Assembly (NCBI RefSeq): GCF_900182835.1 | Contig: NZ_FXUB01000001.1 | Span: 434,001-498,000 of the forward strand | Direction: 5' to 3' | Source: Desulfurobacterium pacificum | GTDB taxonomy: Bacteria; Aquificota; Aquificia; Desulfurobacteriales; Desulfurobacteriaceae | DNA length: 64,000 nucleotides | Shown: piece after piece, positions 57,735 through 64,000 of the stretch | How the letters are laid out: the number at the start of each line of letters is the position of its first letter | How positions within the stretch are numbered: position 1 is the first letter of the stretch | Program-made: the position numbers and the translations under genes | Notes under the pieces: generated by a model | Told to the model about the DNA's origin: nothing | The model's database searches: none | Seen by the model: the letters and a program-made list of their open reading frames with translations, nothing else

Positions 57735-57971
57735 ATGCCTATCGCAAAAATCACATCTAAAGGACGGATTACAATACCCGCTGCTTTCAGGAAACGCCTG
57801 AAAAGCAATCTTGTTTCCGTTGAAATGGAAGGGGACAAAATAGTCATAAGACCAGTTTCAGGAATTGGAGGAATATTTAAAAAGTTCGCATTCAAAGATA
57901 AAACGCCCGAAGAAATAATGGAAATTGAAGAAAAAGCCATTGAGGAGGCTTTCTGCCAGAAATGGAAGTAG
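57735..57971 (+). CDS. vapB: AbrB/MazE-type antitoxin (VapB)
   Basis: This 78-aa protein has the SpoVT-AbrB swapped-hairpin motif ITSKGRITIPAAFRKRL at the N-terminus and a toxin-binding acidic helix at the C-terminus (TPEEIMEIEEKAIEEAF). It binds its own promoter and neutralises the PIN toxin. It has an AGAGG SD and overlaps vapC by 10 nt. Confidence 0.87.
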   Translation: MPIAKITSKGRITIPAAFRKRLKSNLVSVEMEGDKIVIRPVSGIGGIFKKFAFKDKTPEEIMEIEEKAIEEAFCQKWK

Positions 57972-58375
57972 TAGATACAAACGTAATAATTCGTTACCTT
58001 ATGGCAGATATTGAAGAGCTTTACCTGCAGGCAGAAAAGATATTTACCGAAGCCATAAAAGGACAACGAAAACTTTTTATCCCTCAATCCGTTATCGCAG
58101 AGGTAATTTTCGTTCTTTCAAAGGTCTATAAAATCCCTCGTAAAGAAATTGTTTCAGCGATTAAATTCTTTCTGGGAATCAAGAGCTGCAAAGTCCAGGA
58201 TAACAAAATTGTAGAAGTCGCCTTAAGTATCTACGAAAAAACAAATTTGAGTTTTGTAGATTCTTTCATCTGTGCATACGCCAGGTTAAACAGGTCTAAA
58301 CTAATAACCTTTGACGTCAAACTTAAAAACAAATGTGAAAAAATTACCTTGCATAACTCAGACGCCAGCTCTTAA
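57962..58375 (+). CDS. vapC: PIN-domain ribonuclease toxin (VapC)
   Basis: This 137-aa PIN nuclease has the metal-binding acids in order: D5 in VVDTNVIIR, Glu in IAEVIFVL near 47, Asp in SFVDSFICAYA near 99, and Asp in ITFDVKL near 116. VapC toxins cut tRNA or rRNA. Its last 14 bases repeat the end of prfB, and its 3' end overlaps the convergent atpD by 32 nt. Confidence 0.88.
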   Translation: MEVVDTNVIIRYLMADIEELYLQAEKIFTEAIKGQRKLFIPQSVIAEVIFVLSKVYKIPRKEIVSAIKFFLGIKSCKVQDNKIVEVALSIYEKTNLSFVDSFICAYARLNRSKLITFDVKLKNKCEKITLHNSDASS

Positions 58376-58940
58376 GAAGGGCAATTGCGTTCCTTTCGCT
58401 CTCTTCCAATTCTTCCTCTATCTTCTTTGCCTTTTCTCTATAATCAGGCAGGTAAAAGTTCTCTATTGCGTTAATCCTTACAGTAGTCTTCTTTATCTCC
58501 TCCGCCAGCCTCCAGCCCTTCATTTCAAGTTCCGCAATTTCCAGAATTAATTCAACAACCTCTCTAAAAATCCTCTCCGAGAGTTTAGAAAAAATCCCCT
58601 CTCCCCTCTCCACCACAACCTCTTTCTCAAACTCAAAAGAAACTTTAGGCACAACTACTCCAGCAAAAACCTGCTCTGCCACGCTCAAAACTATCTTTCC
58701 CCCGCCAGAACTTTCCTTTAAAAGCCTTCCCTCACCCACTTCCATAATCGCTTTTGAAAGCGTTTTATAACCTTCAAGCACTTTGGCATTCAGTCTTTTC
58801 CTCTTTTCTTCTATCTCATCAACAATAGCCATAACCTCTTTAAGCAGTATGTTCCTCTTTTCCTCAAAAATCGCCTTTCCATCTTCTAAAAACTTTATCT
58901 CCTCTTTAAGTTTTAAAAGCTCCGTCCTGCTCTTTATCAT
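58344..58940 (-). CDS. atpD: V/A-type ATP synthase subunit D
   Basis: This 198-aa coiled-coil stalk protein has a long N-terminal helix (LLKLKEEIKFLEDGKAIFEEKRNILLKEV) and a C-terminal helix (AEEIKKTTVRINAIENFYLPDYREKAKKIEEELEE), the subunit D layout. It forms the central rotor shaft inside the A3B3 head. It overlaps atpB by 4 nt. The last residues, KSWRLSYAR, are encoded across the 14-bp repeat, so its C-terminus was probably altered by the vapBC insertion. Confidence 0.88.
   Translation of the reverse strand: MIKSRTELLKLKEEIKFLEDGKAIFEEKRNILLKEVMAIVDEIEEKRKRLNAKVLEGYKTLSKAIMEVGEGRLLKESSGGGKIVLSVAEQVFAGVVVPKVSFEFEKEVVVERGEGIFSKLSERIFREVVELILEIAELEMKGWRLAEEIKKTTVRINAIENFYLPDYREKAKKIEEELEESERNAIALLKSWRLSYAR
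58362..58375 (+). repeat. 14-bp direct repeat, right copy
   Basis: This copy is identical to 57654-57667 and forms the last codons and stop of vapC. On the minus strand it encodes KSWR near the end of atpD. Confidence 0.85.
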
Positions 58941-60256
58941 CTTCCTAACCTTTTCAGGTCTTCCTCTTTAAGTTGAGTAAGCTCTTTTTCAGGTAAAAGA
59001 GAGAGAACCCTCAAGCCAACGGCAAACGTATCCTCAAGGGTTCTCTTTTCTCCCTCCTCCTGACCTATAAATTCTTTTAAAAACCTTCTGCCAAACTCAA
59101 GATACTTCCGTTCAACTTCTCCAAGCTCACTCTCACCTATGATAGATGCAAGTTTTTCAACAGTTTTAAACTTAGCGTAAGCTGAATAAAGCTGAGATGC
59201 AAACCTTCTGTGAAAAGGCTCTATCGCATCGTTCATTAACCTTGAAAGAGACGGCAAAACGTCAATCGGCGGCTTTATACCCTGCTGATAGAGTTTTCTG
59301 TCTAAAACTATCTGCCCCTCTGTTATGTAACCGGTTAAGTCTGGAATAGGATGGGTAATATCATCGTCAGGCATCGTAAGAACAGGAATCATCGTAAGAG
59401 AACCCTTTTTACCCTTTATCAATCCAGCACGCTCATAGATAGAAGCGAGGTCGCTATACATGTAGGCAGGATACCCCTTCCTGCCTGGTATCTCTTCCCT
59501 TTTTGAAGAAATCTGCCTTAAAGAGTCGCAGTAGTTTGTCATATCAAAAAGAACGGTAACAACGTCCAAACCCTTTTCAAAGGCGAAAAACTCTGCCACC
59601 GTCAAAGCCGTTCTTGGTAGAAGAACCTGAGCAGCTGGAGGGTCTGAAGCTCTTGCAACGAAAACTATCGTATTGCCGACAATTCTTTTTATAAGATAAT
59701 CAACAATCTCATTTTTAAGTCCAATAACGCCTAAAACGGTAAGCGTTTCTTCCGTTTGAATCTGATTAACCAGACTGATAACCAAATCTTCCGTCTCAAC
59801 GCCAGAGACAGAAAAAATCGGTAGCTTCTGTCCCTTTACCAGCACGTTTAAACCGTCTATCGCAGAAAAGCCTGTAACGATAGGCTCTTTTGGGAAATCT
59901 CTGAAAAACGGATTTATAGGTTTTCCGTAAACTTCAACTTCTTTACCAATCGGTTTTTTACCGGTTGTCAGCTCTTCACCGTAAGCGTTAAACCTTTTGC
60001 CTACCATCTCTTCAGAAACTGAAACGGTAAACATCTCACCGGTAAACCTGACAAGCACATCCCTTGATATTTCAGAAGAATCCCCCAAAACTTCTATCAA
60101 CGCCACCTTTTCGTTAATTTCTATTATCCTGCCCGGAACTTCCCTGTCTTTCCACTTCACGAAAACTTTTTCTCCAAACATAGGCTCAACTGCATCACTC
60201 TTAAAAAAGAGAAGCTGCTCCTTTAAAGACTCAACGCCTTTGTAATATTCTTTCAC
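58937..60256 (-). CDS. atpB: V/A-type ATP synthase subunit B (regulatory)
   Basis: This 439-aa non-catalytic head subunit has GFSAIDGLNVLVKGQKLPIFSVSG near residue 130, where the catalytic P-loop is replaced. It also has SDLASIYERAGLIKGKKGSLTMIPVLTMPDDDITHPIPDLTGYITEGQIVLDR near 263-315. Length and motifs are typical. It overlaps atpA by 4 nt. Confidence 0.95.
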   Translation of the reverse strand: MKEYYKGVESLKEQLLFFKSDAVEPMFGEKVFVKWKDREVPGRIIEINEKVALIEVLGDSSEISRDVLVRFTGEMFTVSVSEEMVGKRFNAYGEELTTGKKPIGKEVEVYGKPINPFFRDFPKEPIVTGFSAIDGLNVLVKGQKLPIFSVSGVETEDLVISLVNQIQTEETLTVLGVIGLKNEIVDYLIKRIVGNTIVFVARASDPPAAQVLLPRTALTVAEFFAFEKGLDVVTVLFDMTNYCDSLRQISSKREEIPGRKGYPAYMYSDLASIYERAGLIKGKKGSLTMIPVLTMPDDDITHPIPDLTGYITEGQIVLDRKLYQQGIKPPIDVLPSLSRLMNDAIEPFHRRFASQLYSAYAKFKTVEKLASIIGESELGEVERKYLEFGRRFLKEFIGQEEGEKRTLEDTFAVGLRVLSLLPEKELTQLKEEDLKRLGR

Positions 60257-61959
60257 CTCAAAAACTCCCCATAAACTTCTTCTATCTTTTTCTTCAACTC
60301 TTCTAACTTCTCCAGCTCATCCTCGCTCACTTCCATCTTCATTTTTAGAACCTCTGAAACAATCGGCTGTGAAACTATTCTGTCAACGGGAACACCTCTT
60401 TCCTCAAAAACCTTACGCCACCACTCAGAAAGAGTTTTTAAAACTTCAGCCATGAAAATCTGCTTTTTAGGGGAAGAGTAGCAGTCAACGGGGTCAAAAG
60501 CGTTCTGTCTCAAAAACGCTTCTCTGATAACGTTGAACTCTTCATACTTTAACTTCTGGTCTTCCGGCAGCGACTCCCTTCCTAAAAGTCTCACTAACTT
60601 TTCAAGCCTTTCACCTTCCTGAAGCGTTTCAACCATCCACCTTCTTAAAGCCCCGTAATCACCGAACCGATTCCACCAGTCTTTAACAAACTCAGCATAC
60701 CTACTGTAACTGTTGAAAGGATTAATAGCCGGGTAAAACCTCGCACTCGCTAATTCTCTGTCAAGCGCCCAAAACGTTCCCGTAAATCGCTTCGTGTGCC
60801 TTGTAACCGGTTCAGAAAAATCCCCACCCGGCGGCGAAACAGCTCCTATTATCGTTATGCTTCCATTCCCATCAGCAGTTTTAAAAGCGCCGGCACGCTC
60901 GTAGATAGAAGCTATCTTTGAAGAGAGAGAAGCGGGGAATCCCTCCTCTATCGGAAGCTCTCCCATCCTCCCGGAAATCTCCCTCATGGCTTCAGCCCAC
61001 CTTGACGTTGAATCTGCCATAACGGCAACCGAGTAACCCATATCCTTAAAGTATTCGGCTATCGTTATTCCAAGGTAGATTGAAGATTCCCTTGCAGAAA
61101 CGGGCATGTCTGAGGTGTTGGCTATCAAAACCGTTCTGTTCATCAGAGGTTTTCCCGTATAAGGGTCTTTAAGCTTTGGAAATTCCTTCAAAATCTCTGT
61201 CATTTCGTTTCCCCTTTCACCGCAGCCTATATAGACAATCACATCGGCGTTGCACCACTTTGCAAGAGTTTGCTGAAGAACCGTTTTGCCTGTTCCAAAA
61301 CCGCCAGGAATAGAAGCTGCACCGCCCTTAGCTACCGGAAACAGAAAATCCACGATTCTCTGACCGGTAAAAAGAGGCTCGCTTACCTCTACCCTTTTAC
61401 CGAAGCGAGAAGGTATCCTTACAGCCCTTTCCTCAAATATAAAGACATCGGTTTCTCCCACCTTTACTACCGGTTCTTCAGCAGAAACCTTCCCCTCTTT
61501 TACCCTCGCTACCGTTCCGTCAACAGGTGAAAGTATCTTATACTTAAAACCTTTAAACTCAACAAATCCAACCAGCTGACCTGCATTTACTTCATCTCCA
61601 ACTTTTACCTGCGGCACAAACTCAAATTCCCCTTCCGGAAAGAACTTCTTTCCTCTTCCCCTTTCAATCCTCTCACCAGAAGAAGAAAGAACCCTGCCCA
61701 AGCCGTCTAAAATCATTCCTAAAATGCCGGGGGCAAGCGTTACAGAAAGCATTCTGCCGGTAAAGAAAACTCTTTCACCAACTTTCAAACCTTCCGTCCT
61801 TTCGTAAACCTGAACGACAGCTCTATCTTTAGTTATTGAAACAACTTCACCCATCAGCTTTAAACCGCCAACCTGCGCAACTTCAAAGAGAAAAGGCTTT
61901 TCTCCCTCCTCTACAGCAACTTCAACCACAGGACCAGAAACTCTTACAACCCTCCCCAA
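60253..61959 (-). CDS. atpA: V/A-type ATP synthase subunit A (catalytic)
   Basis: This 568-aa catalytic head subunit has Walker A GGFGTGKTVLQ near residue 221, the A-subunit-specific non-homologous insert (about 110-180, ILSPVDGTVARVKEG), and Walker B VAVMADSTSRWAEA near 313. SPPGGDFSEPVTRHT near 375 is also conserved. It couples ATP hydrolysis or synthesis to ion flow. It lies 1 nt after atpE. Confidence 0.96.
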   Translation of the reverse strand: MGRVVRVSGPVVEVAVEEGEKPFLFEVAQVGGLKLMGEVVSITKDRAVVQVYERTEGLKVGERVFFTGRMLSVTLAPGILGMILDGLGRVLSSSGERIERGRGKKFFPEGEFEFVPQVKVGDEVNAGQLVGFVEFKGFKYKILSPVDGTVARVKEGKVSAEEPVVKVGETDVFIFEERAVRIPSRFGKRVEVSEPLFTGQRIVDFLFPVAKGGAASIPGGFGTGKTVLQQTLAKWCNADVIVYIGCGERGNEMTEILKEFPKLKDPYTGKPLMNRTVLIANTSDMPVSARESSIYLGITIAEYFKDMGYSVAVMADSTSRWAEAMREISGRMGELPIEEGFPASLSSKIASIYERAGAFKTADGNGSITIIGAVSPPGGDFSEPVTRHTKRFTGTFWALDRELASARFYPAINPFNSYSRYAEFVKDWWNRFGDYGALRRWMVETLQEGERLEKLVRLLGRESLPEDQKLKYEEFNVIREAFLRQNAFDPVDCYSSPKKQIFMAEVLKTLSEWWRKVFEERGVPVDRIVSQPIVSEVLKMKMEVSEDELEKLEELKKKIEEVYGEFLR

Positions 61960-61960
61960 G

Positions 61961-62488
61961 TTAAACCTCTCTTAAAAGCTTTTGAACTTCCGCTTCTACC
62001 ACTTCCATTAACTCACTCTCATCAAAAAGAACCGCTACGTTTTCTCCCTCAAACTTGAACAGAACGCCCTTTTCGTCTGTGCATTCAAGGTCAGGAAAAT
62101 TGCCCTTCAACCTGCAACTAACCAAAAACCTTCCCGTTTTATGCTTTTCTAAAACGCGCTTTTTAAAACACTCAAAGAGATAGATAAAATCCAGCTTCTC
62201 TAAAACCTGAAGGAAGACCAATTCTTTAAAATTTTCAATAGTTTCGTTTACTCTCCTTTCAAAAGCGGTTTCAATTTCTTTTCTCTTTGCAGAAAACTCT
62301 TCTTCCAACTGCTTCAGCGCTGCATTTAACCTCTCTTCTTTAATCTTTTCTGCTTCTTTACGCGCATTTTCTTCTATTTCTTTAGCTCTTCTCTCTGCTT
62401 CTTCTAAAATGGCAATACTTTTCTTTTTGGTAGTTTTTATCACCTCTTTTCTGAACTCCTCAAAGTTACCCGATTCCCAGAACTCCAT
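61961..62488 (-). CDS. atpE: V/A-type ATP synthase subunit E (peripheral stalk)
   Basis: This 175-aa protein has a highly charged N-terminal coiled coil (about 15-90, rich in Glu, Lys and Ala) and a globular C-terminus (CRLKGNFPDLECTDEKGVLFKFEGENVAVLF). That is the layout of stalk subunit E. Sequence is weakly conserved in this family, so position between F and A supports the call. It overlaps atpF by 23 nt. Confidence 0.82.
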   Translation of the reverse strand: MEFWESGNFEEFRKEVIKTTKKKSIAILEEAERRAKEIEENARKEAEKIKEERLNAALKQLEEEFSAKRKEIETAFERRVNETIENFKELVFLQVLEKLDFIYLFECFKKRVLEKHKTGRFLVSCRLKGNFPDLECTDEKGVLFKFEGENVAVLFDESELMEVVEAEVQKLLREV

Positions 62489-62762
62489 ACAGGAACTCCT
62501 TTAAATCCCTTTTGAGATGAATGCCGTCAAAAGAAGGGACGAAAACAACTACCGGTTTTGCCTTTCTCTTTAATTTTTCGGAAAAGGGAAGGAACGTTTT
62601 GTAATACCTGTCAGGAATAACCAATATTCCAACGTCCTCATCGTGAATAAGCTGGTCAACTTTCGCTTTAAACTCTTCTTTGCCGTTTACGATAACTGCT
62701 TCTGCGCCCCCCAGCCTGAAGCCGGCACATTCTCTTTCATTGCCGATAAAAACGATTCTCAT
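62466..62762 (-). CDS. atpF: V/A-type ATP synthase subunit F
   Basis: This 98-aa Rossmann-like protein has the subunit F pattern: RIVFIGNERECAGFRLGGAEAVIV at the start, a central DVGILVIPDRYYKTF, and VVVFVPS near 72. It binds the central shaft. It overlaps atpK by 4 nt and atpE by 23 nt. Confidence 0.85.
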   Translation of the reverse strand: MRIVFIGNERECAGFRLGGAEAVIVNGKEEFKAKVDQLIHDEDVGILVIPDRYYKTFLPFSEKLKRKAKPVVVFVPSFDGIHLKRDLKEFLYGVLGIG

Positions 62763-63031
62763 AGCTTACCTAAAATAAGGATTGCAACGATAAGACCGTA
62801 AATAGCAATACCTTCAGCAAGCCCCAAAAAGATTAAAGCTCTTCCCGACATCTCCGGCTTTTCGCCCATCGTCCCCATTGCAGCAGAACCTACAAGCCCA
62901 ACTGCAACGCCGGCAGCAACGGTGGAAAGCCCAACAGAAACTGCTGCAGCCATGTAACCCCACGCCTTATCCCCCGCAAAAGCAACGGCAGGAAACAGCA
63001 GGAAGAAAAGAAACCTTAAAGCAGTTTTCAT
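62759..63031 (-). CDS. atpK: V/A-type ATP synthase subunit K (c ring)
   Basis: This 90-aa proteolipid has two ring helices, with the ion-binding Glu in LGLAEGIAIYGLIV near residue 73. The N-terminus (about 1-19, ending PAVAFA before GDK) looks like a cleavable signal peptide, unusual for this subunit. The first ring helix lacks the Gln typical of Na+ sites, so proton coupling is more likely; this is inference. Confidence 0.9.
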   Translation of the reverse strand: MKTALRFLFFLLFPAVAFAGDKAWGYMAAAVSVGLSTVAAGVAVGLVGSAAMGTMGEKPEMSGRALIFLGLAEGIAIYGLIVAILILGKL

Positions 63032-63062
63032 AACGTTCCCCCGCAGAATATTGATTAATCCG

Positions 63063-63413
63063 TTACTTATCTTCCGTGCTACTTAAAATGTGTAAAATTT
63101 CCTTTCTTAACGAAGGAATTGATTCCTTAACTACTTTCCAAACAAGCTCATAATCAATTCCAAAATATTCATGAATAAGTATATCTCTCATTCCAGCGAT
63201 ATTTTTCCAGGGAATATGGGAATAGCTATATTTAAATTCTGCTGGCAGATTTTTAACGGCTTCTCCAATAATTTCTAAACTCCTTACAAAGGCTCTCTGA
63301 AAAACTGGGTTATTTGAAAACTCCTCATAATTTAAAGTGCGTGAATTTTCAATTAGAAAGTTGCATTCCTGCAGAATATGGTGCAGAAAAACCTTGTAAC
63401 TTTTTTTCTTCAT
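63063..63413 (-). CDS. hepT: HepT-like HEPN (DUF86) ribonuclease toxin (module 3)
   Basis: This 116-aa DUF86 protein has RDILIHEYFG near residue 78, matching R-x4-H-x-Y, and the IGEAVKNLP segment typical of the family. It shares one base with the nucleotidyltransferase gene upstream and lies 31 nt before atpK. It belongs to a different lineage from modules 1 and 2. Confidence 0.87.
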   Translation of the reverse strand: MKKKSYKVFLHHILQECNFLIENSRTLNYEEFSNNPVFQRAFVRSLEIIGEAVKNLPAEFKYSYSHIPWKNIAGMRDILIHEYFGIDYELVWKVVKESIPSLRKEILHILSSTEDK

Positions 63414-63760
63414 TAAAAAACCTCAAACTCCTGAATGTAAGGTTTAACAAAAGGACTTATCCCTCTATCTGTCACTAAATCTACTGAAAGCCCGGTAATC
63501 TCTTCTAAGTAATGCTTGAGTTCTACAAAACCGAGTAAATCTATCCTGCCATCAAGAAAAACGATTACATCTAAGTCACTATCCCTTTTTTGTTCGTTTC
63601 TGGCAAAAGAACCAAAAATTTTCAAATGCTTAACCCCGTATCTCTGGTATAGCTCTTCACGATGTTTTAAGAGAACTTCAACTATTTCCGATAGACTTTT
63701 AGGTTTCTTACGCGCAGTTCTTTTAAGGATTTTCACCTGTTCTCCATGATTATGTTCCAT
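63413..63760 (-). CDS. mntA: MntA-like nucleotidyltransferase antitoxin (module 3)
   Basis: This 115-aa protein has KIFGSFARNEQKRDSDLDV (GS at 50-51, D62-L-D64), the minimal nucleotidyltransferase signature, and a later SVDLV acidic site. A GTG eight codons in, with GGAG ahead, is an alternative start. It lies 13 nt after the atpI stop, inside the ATPase operon. Confidence 0.86.
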   Translation of the reverse strand: MEHNHGEQVKILKRTARKKPKSLSEIVEVLLKHREELYQRYGVKHLKIFGSFARNEQKRDSDLDVIVFLDGRIDLLGFVELKHYLEEITGLSVDLVTDRGISPFVKPYIQEFEVF

Positions 63761-63773
63761 TTAAAAATTATAA

Positions 63774-64000
63774 CTATTCAACTTCCAGTCTAAACGGTTT
63801 GAACGGTCTTCCTCCACCCCTGTAAAACTTCTTAAAGAACTCGTAATAGTTGAGCCTTAACGCCTGTATCGTAACTATTAAACCTTCTAAAGCAACGACA
63901 AACAGGTTACCCAATACCACTATTAACCAGTATATCAGAGTTCCTCCTTTAAGAGCCCTGACAGATTCTGCAACGGTAAAAACGGCAAAAAACAGAGCGC
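63774..64000 (-). CDS. atpI: V/A-type ATP synthase subunit I, C-terminal part
   Basis: The minus strand from the window edge to TAG at 63774-63776 encodes about 74 residues. It contains LIYWLIVVLGNLFVVALEG, then LIVTIQALRLNYYEFFKKF and GGGRPFKPF before the stop. That is the strongly conserved C-terminus of the membrane stator subunit I, which carries the ion path. The rest lies outside the window. It is the most upstream gene of the ATPase operon seen here. Confidence 0.9.
   Translation of the reverse strand, partial: ALFFAVFTVAESVRALKGGTLIYWLIVVLGNLFVVALEGLIVTIQALRLNYYEFFKKFYRGGGRPFKPFRLEVE

Follow-up and report, generated by a model that had tools for sequence, protein, structure and literature searches.

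HepT-MntA toxin-antitoxin pairs (type VII) are defined by an RX4HXY motif in the toxin and a GSX10DXD motif in the antitoxin, and their mechanism is known from Shewanella oneidensis (SO_3166/SO_3165) and from the archaeon T. cleftensis (PMC7641770). Insertion of such a module into a housekeeping operon has been known since 2009, with an MNT-HEPN module that interrupts the lysine biosynthesis operon in Thermus thermophilus HB8 and is absent in HB27, and with a further recent gain or loss event in Deinococcus (Makarova et al. 2009, PMC2701414). The case reported here involves the same module and the same kind of event as in HB8, with a housekeeping operon split and the site empty in close relatives. 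It differs in concerning another operon in another bacterial group, and it adds unusually clear boundaries, which are resolved to an overlapping gene junction. An insertion into a V/A-ATPase operon is mentioned in none of the titles and abstract beginnings of the open-licence literature that was searched.

The window (the whole 64,000-nt stretch of DNA analysed) comes from the 1.59 Mb genome of Desulfurobacterium pacificum. On the minus strand, the V/A-ATPase operon runs as a 104-aa gene, a 243-aa gene, atpI, the mntA-hepT pair, atpK, atpF, atpE, atpA, atpB, and atpD (Table 1). The 243-aa gene upstream of atpI is a putative atpC, to judge from its position and size. AtpI is 75% identical to its match on a contig from a Desulfurobacteriaceae metagenome bin (L042). 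The subunits and their order (atpI-K-F-E-A-B-D) are common to the window and the relatives examined, whose operons are uninterrupted; among the readable operons, the pair splits only that of the window. The sequence-only reading had placed a mntA-hepT pair on the minus strand between the atpI stop (63774) and the atpK start (63031), and its coordinates, strand, and gene order were correct.

Table 1. Features of the interrupted V/A-ATPase operon, in window positions.
Feature	Position	Strand	Remarks
Downstream operon atpF, atpE, atpA, atpB, atpD	58344..62762	-	Profile matches; atpE below its families' cut-offs only
atpK (rotor ring subunit K/c)	62759..63031	-	ATP-synt_C, E 1.2e-15
Inserted segment, 748 bp	63032..63779	-	From the last atpI codon common to relatives to the atpK start; delimited against the empty junctions in L042 and L041
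Shine-Dalgarno GGGGG of atpK, inside insert	63038..63042	-	
hepT	63063..63413	-	HEPN-family RNase toxin; Pfam HepT-like PF01934, E 4.4e-28
mntA	63413..63760	-	MNT-family nucleotidyltransferase antitoxin; NTP_transf_2 PF01909, E 8.9e-14
Shine-Dalgarno GGAG for mntA GTG start	63742..63745	-	
Promoter-like TTTAGA-16-TATAAT (10/12)	63767..63794	-	First hexamer in atpI end, second in insert
atpI 3' end (V/A-ATPase subunit I/a)	63774..64000	-	Whole gene 589 aa, extends beyond the window; full frame read outside the window

The other end of the operon carries a VapB-like ORF (78 aa, by position and appearance) and a VapC-like PIN protein (137 aa) on the plus strand (57735-58375). They are convergent with atpD and overlap its 3' end by 32 nt, and the operon regions of seven relatives (L237-L243) contain no ORF matching the VapC at E 1e-3. 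The V/A-ATPase itself is patchy in the class, with AtpI in 12 of 136 genomes, counting the source genome and one very weak match; this may reflect horizontal spread of the operon. The AtpI of genome G004 is split into two frames of 363 and 200 aa (L237 5110-6869), possibly a broken gene or an assembly error.

The inserted genes show the arrangement expected of class I HepT-MntA (type VII) pairs, with a PF01934 HEPN gene adjoining a PF01909 MNT gene, and the hepT start and mntA stop share one base (TAATG). Both defining motifs are intact: RX4HXY reads RDILIHEY in HepT (residues 76-83), and GSX10DXD reads GSFARNEQKRDSDLD in MntA (residues 50-64 of the 115-aa frame). The families and motifs are those of the Shewanella pair (PMC7641770). 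The window pair differs in scoring below the 60-bit cut-offs of the NCBIfam equivalogs, with 44.1 bits for HepT_toxin and 38 bits for MntA_antitoxin, and is thus placed in the wider class I and not as an equivalog. PADLOC matched the window's MntA under candidate PDC-S09 models and gave no match for its HepT, which, together with the missed equivalog cut-offs, makes the pair at most a putative ortholog of the tested Shewanella pair. In a sequence search of solved structures, MntA matched 1wot (E 2.3e-12), 9xbd (E 3.8e-4), and, only at E 0.0072, the Mnt-family antidote 5yep, which we take to come from the Shewanella pair; for HepT, no solved structure was matched at E 0.01. Across the pairs surveyed in the class, RX4HXY occurs in 51 of 53 toxins and GSX10DXD in 53 of 53 partners, the latter count being partly circular because partners were picked by a looser form of the same motif.

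The boundaries of the insert were read against the junctions of relatives. An AtpI search of 61 genomes gave nine with a match, the source genome included, and extension to 136 genomes of the class gave 12: the source genome, 10 clear matches, and G081 (45 residues, E 4.5e-4). Presence of the pair in all relatives, which the sequence-only reading had named as its counter-case, was not found: with 135 other genomes of the class searched, the pair is absent from nine of nine other readable atpI-atpK junctions, and the gene cluster is uninterrupted there, the situation that marks an operon-embedded MNT-HEPN insertion. Six of these junctions overlap (by 16 nt in G001 and by 4 nt in G004, G007, G012, G016, and G019), and three have short gaps (33 bp in G112, 42 bp in G041, and 46 bp in G058). 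The tenth genome with a clear AtpI (G121) has broken frames and showed no pair. Since atpI overlaps atpK in G001, a draft genome (83% complete) of the same genus, some 748 bp would have entered where no base was free, and both flanking ATPase genes were left whole. The absence of a flanking direct repeat, also claimed from the letters, held at both boundaries in a search for ungapped repeats of at least 9 nt. Ungapped repeats do occur, for example two 11-nt pairs at 91% (63091/63821 and 63104/63829), but these lie inside hepT and atpI, off the boundaries. With no such boundary repeat and with ATPase genes as neighbours on both sides, the insert does not have the marks of a transposon or integron cassette, for which terminal repeats, a target-site duplication, or an adjoining recombinase would count. 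The end of atpI imperfectly resembles the stretch ahead of atpK, but as a candidate target-site duplication this was dropped, being too short to judge.

The translation signal of atpK also differs from that in relatives. In G001 and G004 the Shine-Dalgarno sequence of atpK lies within the last atpI codons, as CTGGAGGTT directly before the ATG; the window counterpart reads CTGGAAGTT, after which come a new stop, the pair, and the GGGGG ahead of atpK. The computed pairing is -8.6 kcal/mol in the window vs -10.5 and -10.2 kcal/mol in G001 and G004, respectively. For mntA, Shine-Dalgarno pairing is negligible at the first in-frame ATG (63760; -0.7 kcal/mol) and amounts to -6.4 kcal/mol at the in-frame GTG at 63736. 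This GTG aligns with the ATG starts of the homologous ORFs in G002 and G004, and clear DNA homology begins near it. On the strength of this pairing and alignment, the more likely start of mntA is GTG 63736 (107 aa) rather than ATG 63760 (115 aa), which would give a spacing of 37 nt from atpI to mntA.

The closest relatives of the pair are found in other genera. A HepT search of 61 genomes gave matches in 29, the best in G018 (69%), G002 (69%), and G004 (67%), all at loci other than the ATPase operon. Paralogues in the source genome reach up to 47% identity and the HepT proteins of the same-genus G001 34-36%. G004 combines an empty ATPase junction with a pair at another locus, where a second MNT gene precedes the pair and a 200-aa ORF, which reads as recombinase-like, follows it. 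The GC content is 34.0% for the pair, 41.0% for atpI, and 42.9% for atpK-atpD. This low GC content and the location of the closest homologues fit acquisition of the pair by horizontal gain.

The source genome has seven PF01934 matches (six over the cut-off) and 20 PF01909 matches. Its second MNT-HEPN pair sits between mscS and phoH (L107 2003-5338, G000:C5). All 22 genomes of the family have phoH; in all 12 others with a matching upstream mscS, mscS and phoH share 4 to 38 nt (measured with longest-ORF starts) with no pair between them. The neighbouring ORF is unlike this mscS in the remaining nine, four of which have same-strand ORFs of 491-495 aa at 10-23 bp. After VEIFK, the mscS tail of the source genome is unlike its G001 counterpart, and a Shine-Dalgarno sequence is retained for phoH. 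A third pair follows an ABC transporter gene, and 6 bp separate its end from the reverse gyrase gene downstream (L131 411-6414; G000:C1:241300-249700). Reverse gyrase is present in 20 of 22 genomes, but the ORF upstream of it matches the ABC transporter in none of the others, so that the empty site is unreadable.

A series of states is seen between hisB (20 of 22 genomes) and hemL, which adjoins hisB or follows beyond a pair in 11 genomes. G001 and G013 have a full pair, G008 an MNT gene with a hepT that cannot be read through, G009 and G010 the MNT gene alone, and G017 fragments of both genes; in G000, G002, G003, G004, and G005 there is no MNT or HEPN ORF in gaps of 15-88 bp. These states form a decay series at one place (L288, L290, L292, L293, L296, and L299), and with those at mscS-phoH they indicate that pairs arrive at gene junctions, degrade there, and disappear.

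The data do not support embedding as something special. The phenomenon is already described (PMC2701414), and tight same-strand placement (at most 60 bp on both sides) was found for 22 of 49 pairs, not all independent because several are common by descent, compared with 111 of 221 ordinary genes from those loci (Fisher p 0.53), so that pairs are not enriched inside operons over ordinary genes. The pairs are placed like ordinary genes of compact genomes, without operon preference. VapBC pairs, at 8 of 33, may be embedded less often than MNT-HEPN pairs, although the difference is not significant (p 0.066), and the ordinary genes of their own loci stand at 57 of 134 (p 0.072). At 30 bp or less the counts are 16 of 49 and 5 of 33, and when toxins without a called partner are included, 24 of 56 HEPN and 9 of 37 VapC genes are tight. 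Strand agreement with co-directional flanks is 34/37 for the pairs, 18/23 for VapBC, and 146/154 for ordinary genes of the HEPN loci. Tight co-directional junctions make up only 10% of the intergenic bases of these loci (1614/16194), so that, by this rough comparison, random landing alone would not give the picture seen. Genes were called with a simple longest-ORF caller. The 49 pairs derive from 64 HepT matches (63 of the 64 listed down to E 3.2e-18, a partial G106 match being omitted, and one weaker match from the source genome) after removal of three without a readable frame, eight without an MNT partner by pattern, and four with a flank off the contig. The VapC sample was 40 matches hand-picked from the upper part of the list, mostly skipping those near a contig start, of which 36 had a partner gene and 33 had flanks on both sides.

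We conclude that a complete class I MNT-HEPN (MntA-HepT, type VII) pair was most probably gained in this lineage by insertion between the atpI stop and the atpK start. The pair would have entered exactly at this point with both ATPase genes kept whole, and the inserted segment would now supply the Shine-Dalgarno sequence of atpK. By analogy with the published system, HepT would act as an RNase that MntA silences by AMPylating the RX4HXY tyrosine (Tyr83 in the window's HepT). The pair would be read mainly from the operon transcript, with a possible contribution from a promoter at its edge, and may persist as a selfish or defence module to which the host operon lends transcription, with no part in the ATPase. 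Loss in the relatives instead of gain in the source lineage is possible in principle. Gain by insertion is favoured by two open, motif-bearing genes on the operon strand, by the empty sites of the readable relatives, and by closest homologues that lie elsewhere in other genera, as well as by the lower GC content of the pair and the same kind of insertion at mscS-phoH.

How the pair is transcribed bears on how closely it is tied to the operon. From its anatomy it is likely to be co-transcribed with the ATPase, as the sequence-only reading had presumed, with an isolating promoter and terminator as its counter-case; a promoter-like site is present, and no terminator-like site was found in 62700-64000. 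Conceivably, the operon was rewired, with a promoter at the 5' edge driving mntA-hepT independently and read-through feeding atpKFEABD, a scheme we find rather doubtful. The TTTAGA-16-TATAAT site ends 6 nt ahead of ATG 63760 and 30 nt ahead of GTG 63736, the start with the Shine-Dalgarno sequence, which is a fitting leader position, and the lack of a terminator-like site would suit read-through. Sites of this kind are, however, little more numerous than expected, with four in the 1.3 kb of 62700-64000 on both strands vs 2.2 expected (sd 1.4), and 17 vs 15.5 expected over the 13.3 kb surrounding the operon, three of them scoring 10/12. Moreover, the stretch in common with the G002 and G004 pairs does not include the second hexamer, and sigma-70 rules are assumed for this phylum. 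Given four sites where 2.2 are expected, a promoter of the pair's own, in addition to operon transcription, is possible and suggestive only.

Two further readings concern what the pair does. It might have been domesticated to sense or tune ATPase expression, for instance if the use of ATP by MntA coupled toxin release to low ATP. The location inside the operon and the fact that ATP is a substrate of MntA (PMC7641770) are in keeping with this, but embedding is as common for ordinary genes, and a special link to the ATPase was rejected in view of the absence of the pair from the nine other readable operons and of sister pairs beside unrelated genes (mscS-phoH, ABC transporter/reverse gyrase, hisB-hemL, manC-galE, and rfbB-rfbD). 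Ten flanking proteins were scanned against Pfam; hemL, galE, and rfbB are named from broader Pfam matches, and rfbD is putative. As no functional connection to the ATPase was seen either, we regard domestication as extremely unlikely. That the pair is a decaying relic without activity seems improbable as well: antitoxin-only and fragmentary states do exist at hisB-hemL, but here both frames are open over the family profiles and both motifs are intact.

Taken alone, the case in the window, a probable gain by insertion, is one more example of published behaviour. What it provides is a toxin-antitoxin insertion in an ATPase operon whose boundaries are given to the base, accompanied by empty sites in relatives and by a further case elsewhere in the genome. 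One may go further and speculate, as a tentative idea that is probably wrong, that the MNT-HEPN pairs of this family repeatedly insert where the stop and start of translationally coupled genes overlap, preserve or re-create the Shine-Dalgarno sequence of the downstream gene, and are later lost stepwise, toxin first. If true, this would suggest either an insertion route that has gone unrecognised or strong selection for being coupled to host genes in translation. Such pairs make movement without a visible recombinase, and the borrowing of host transcription, directly testable.
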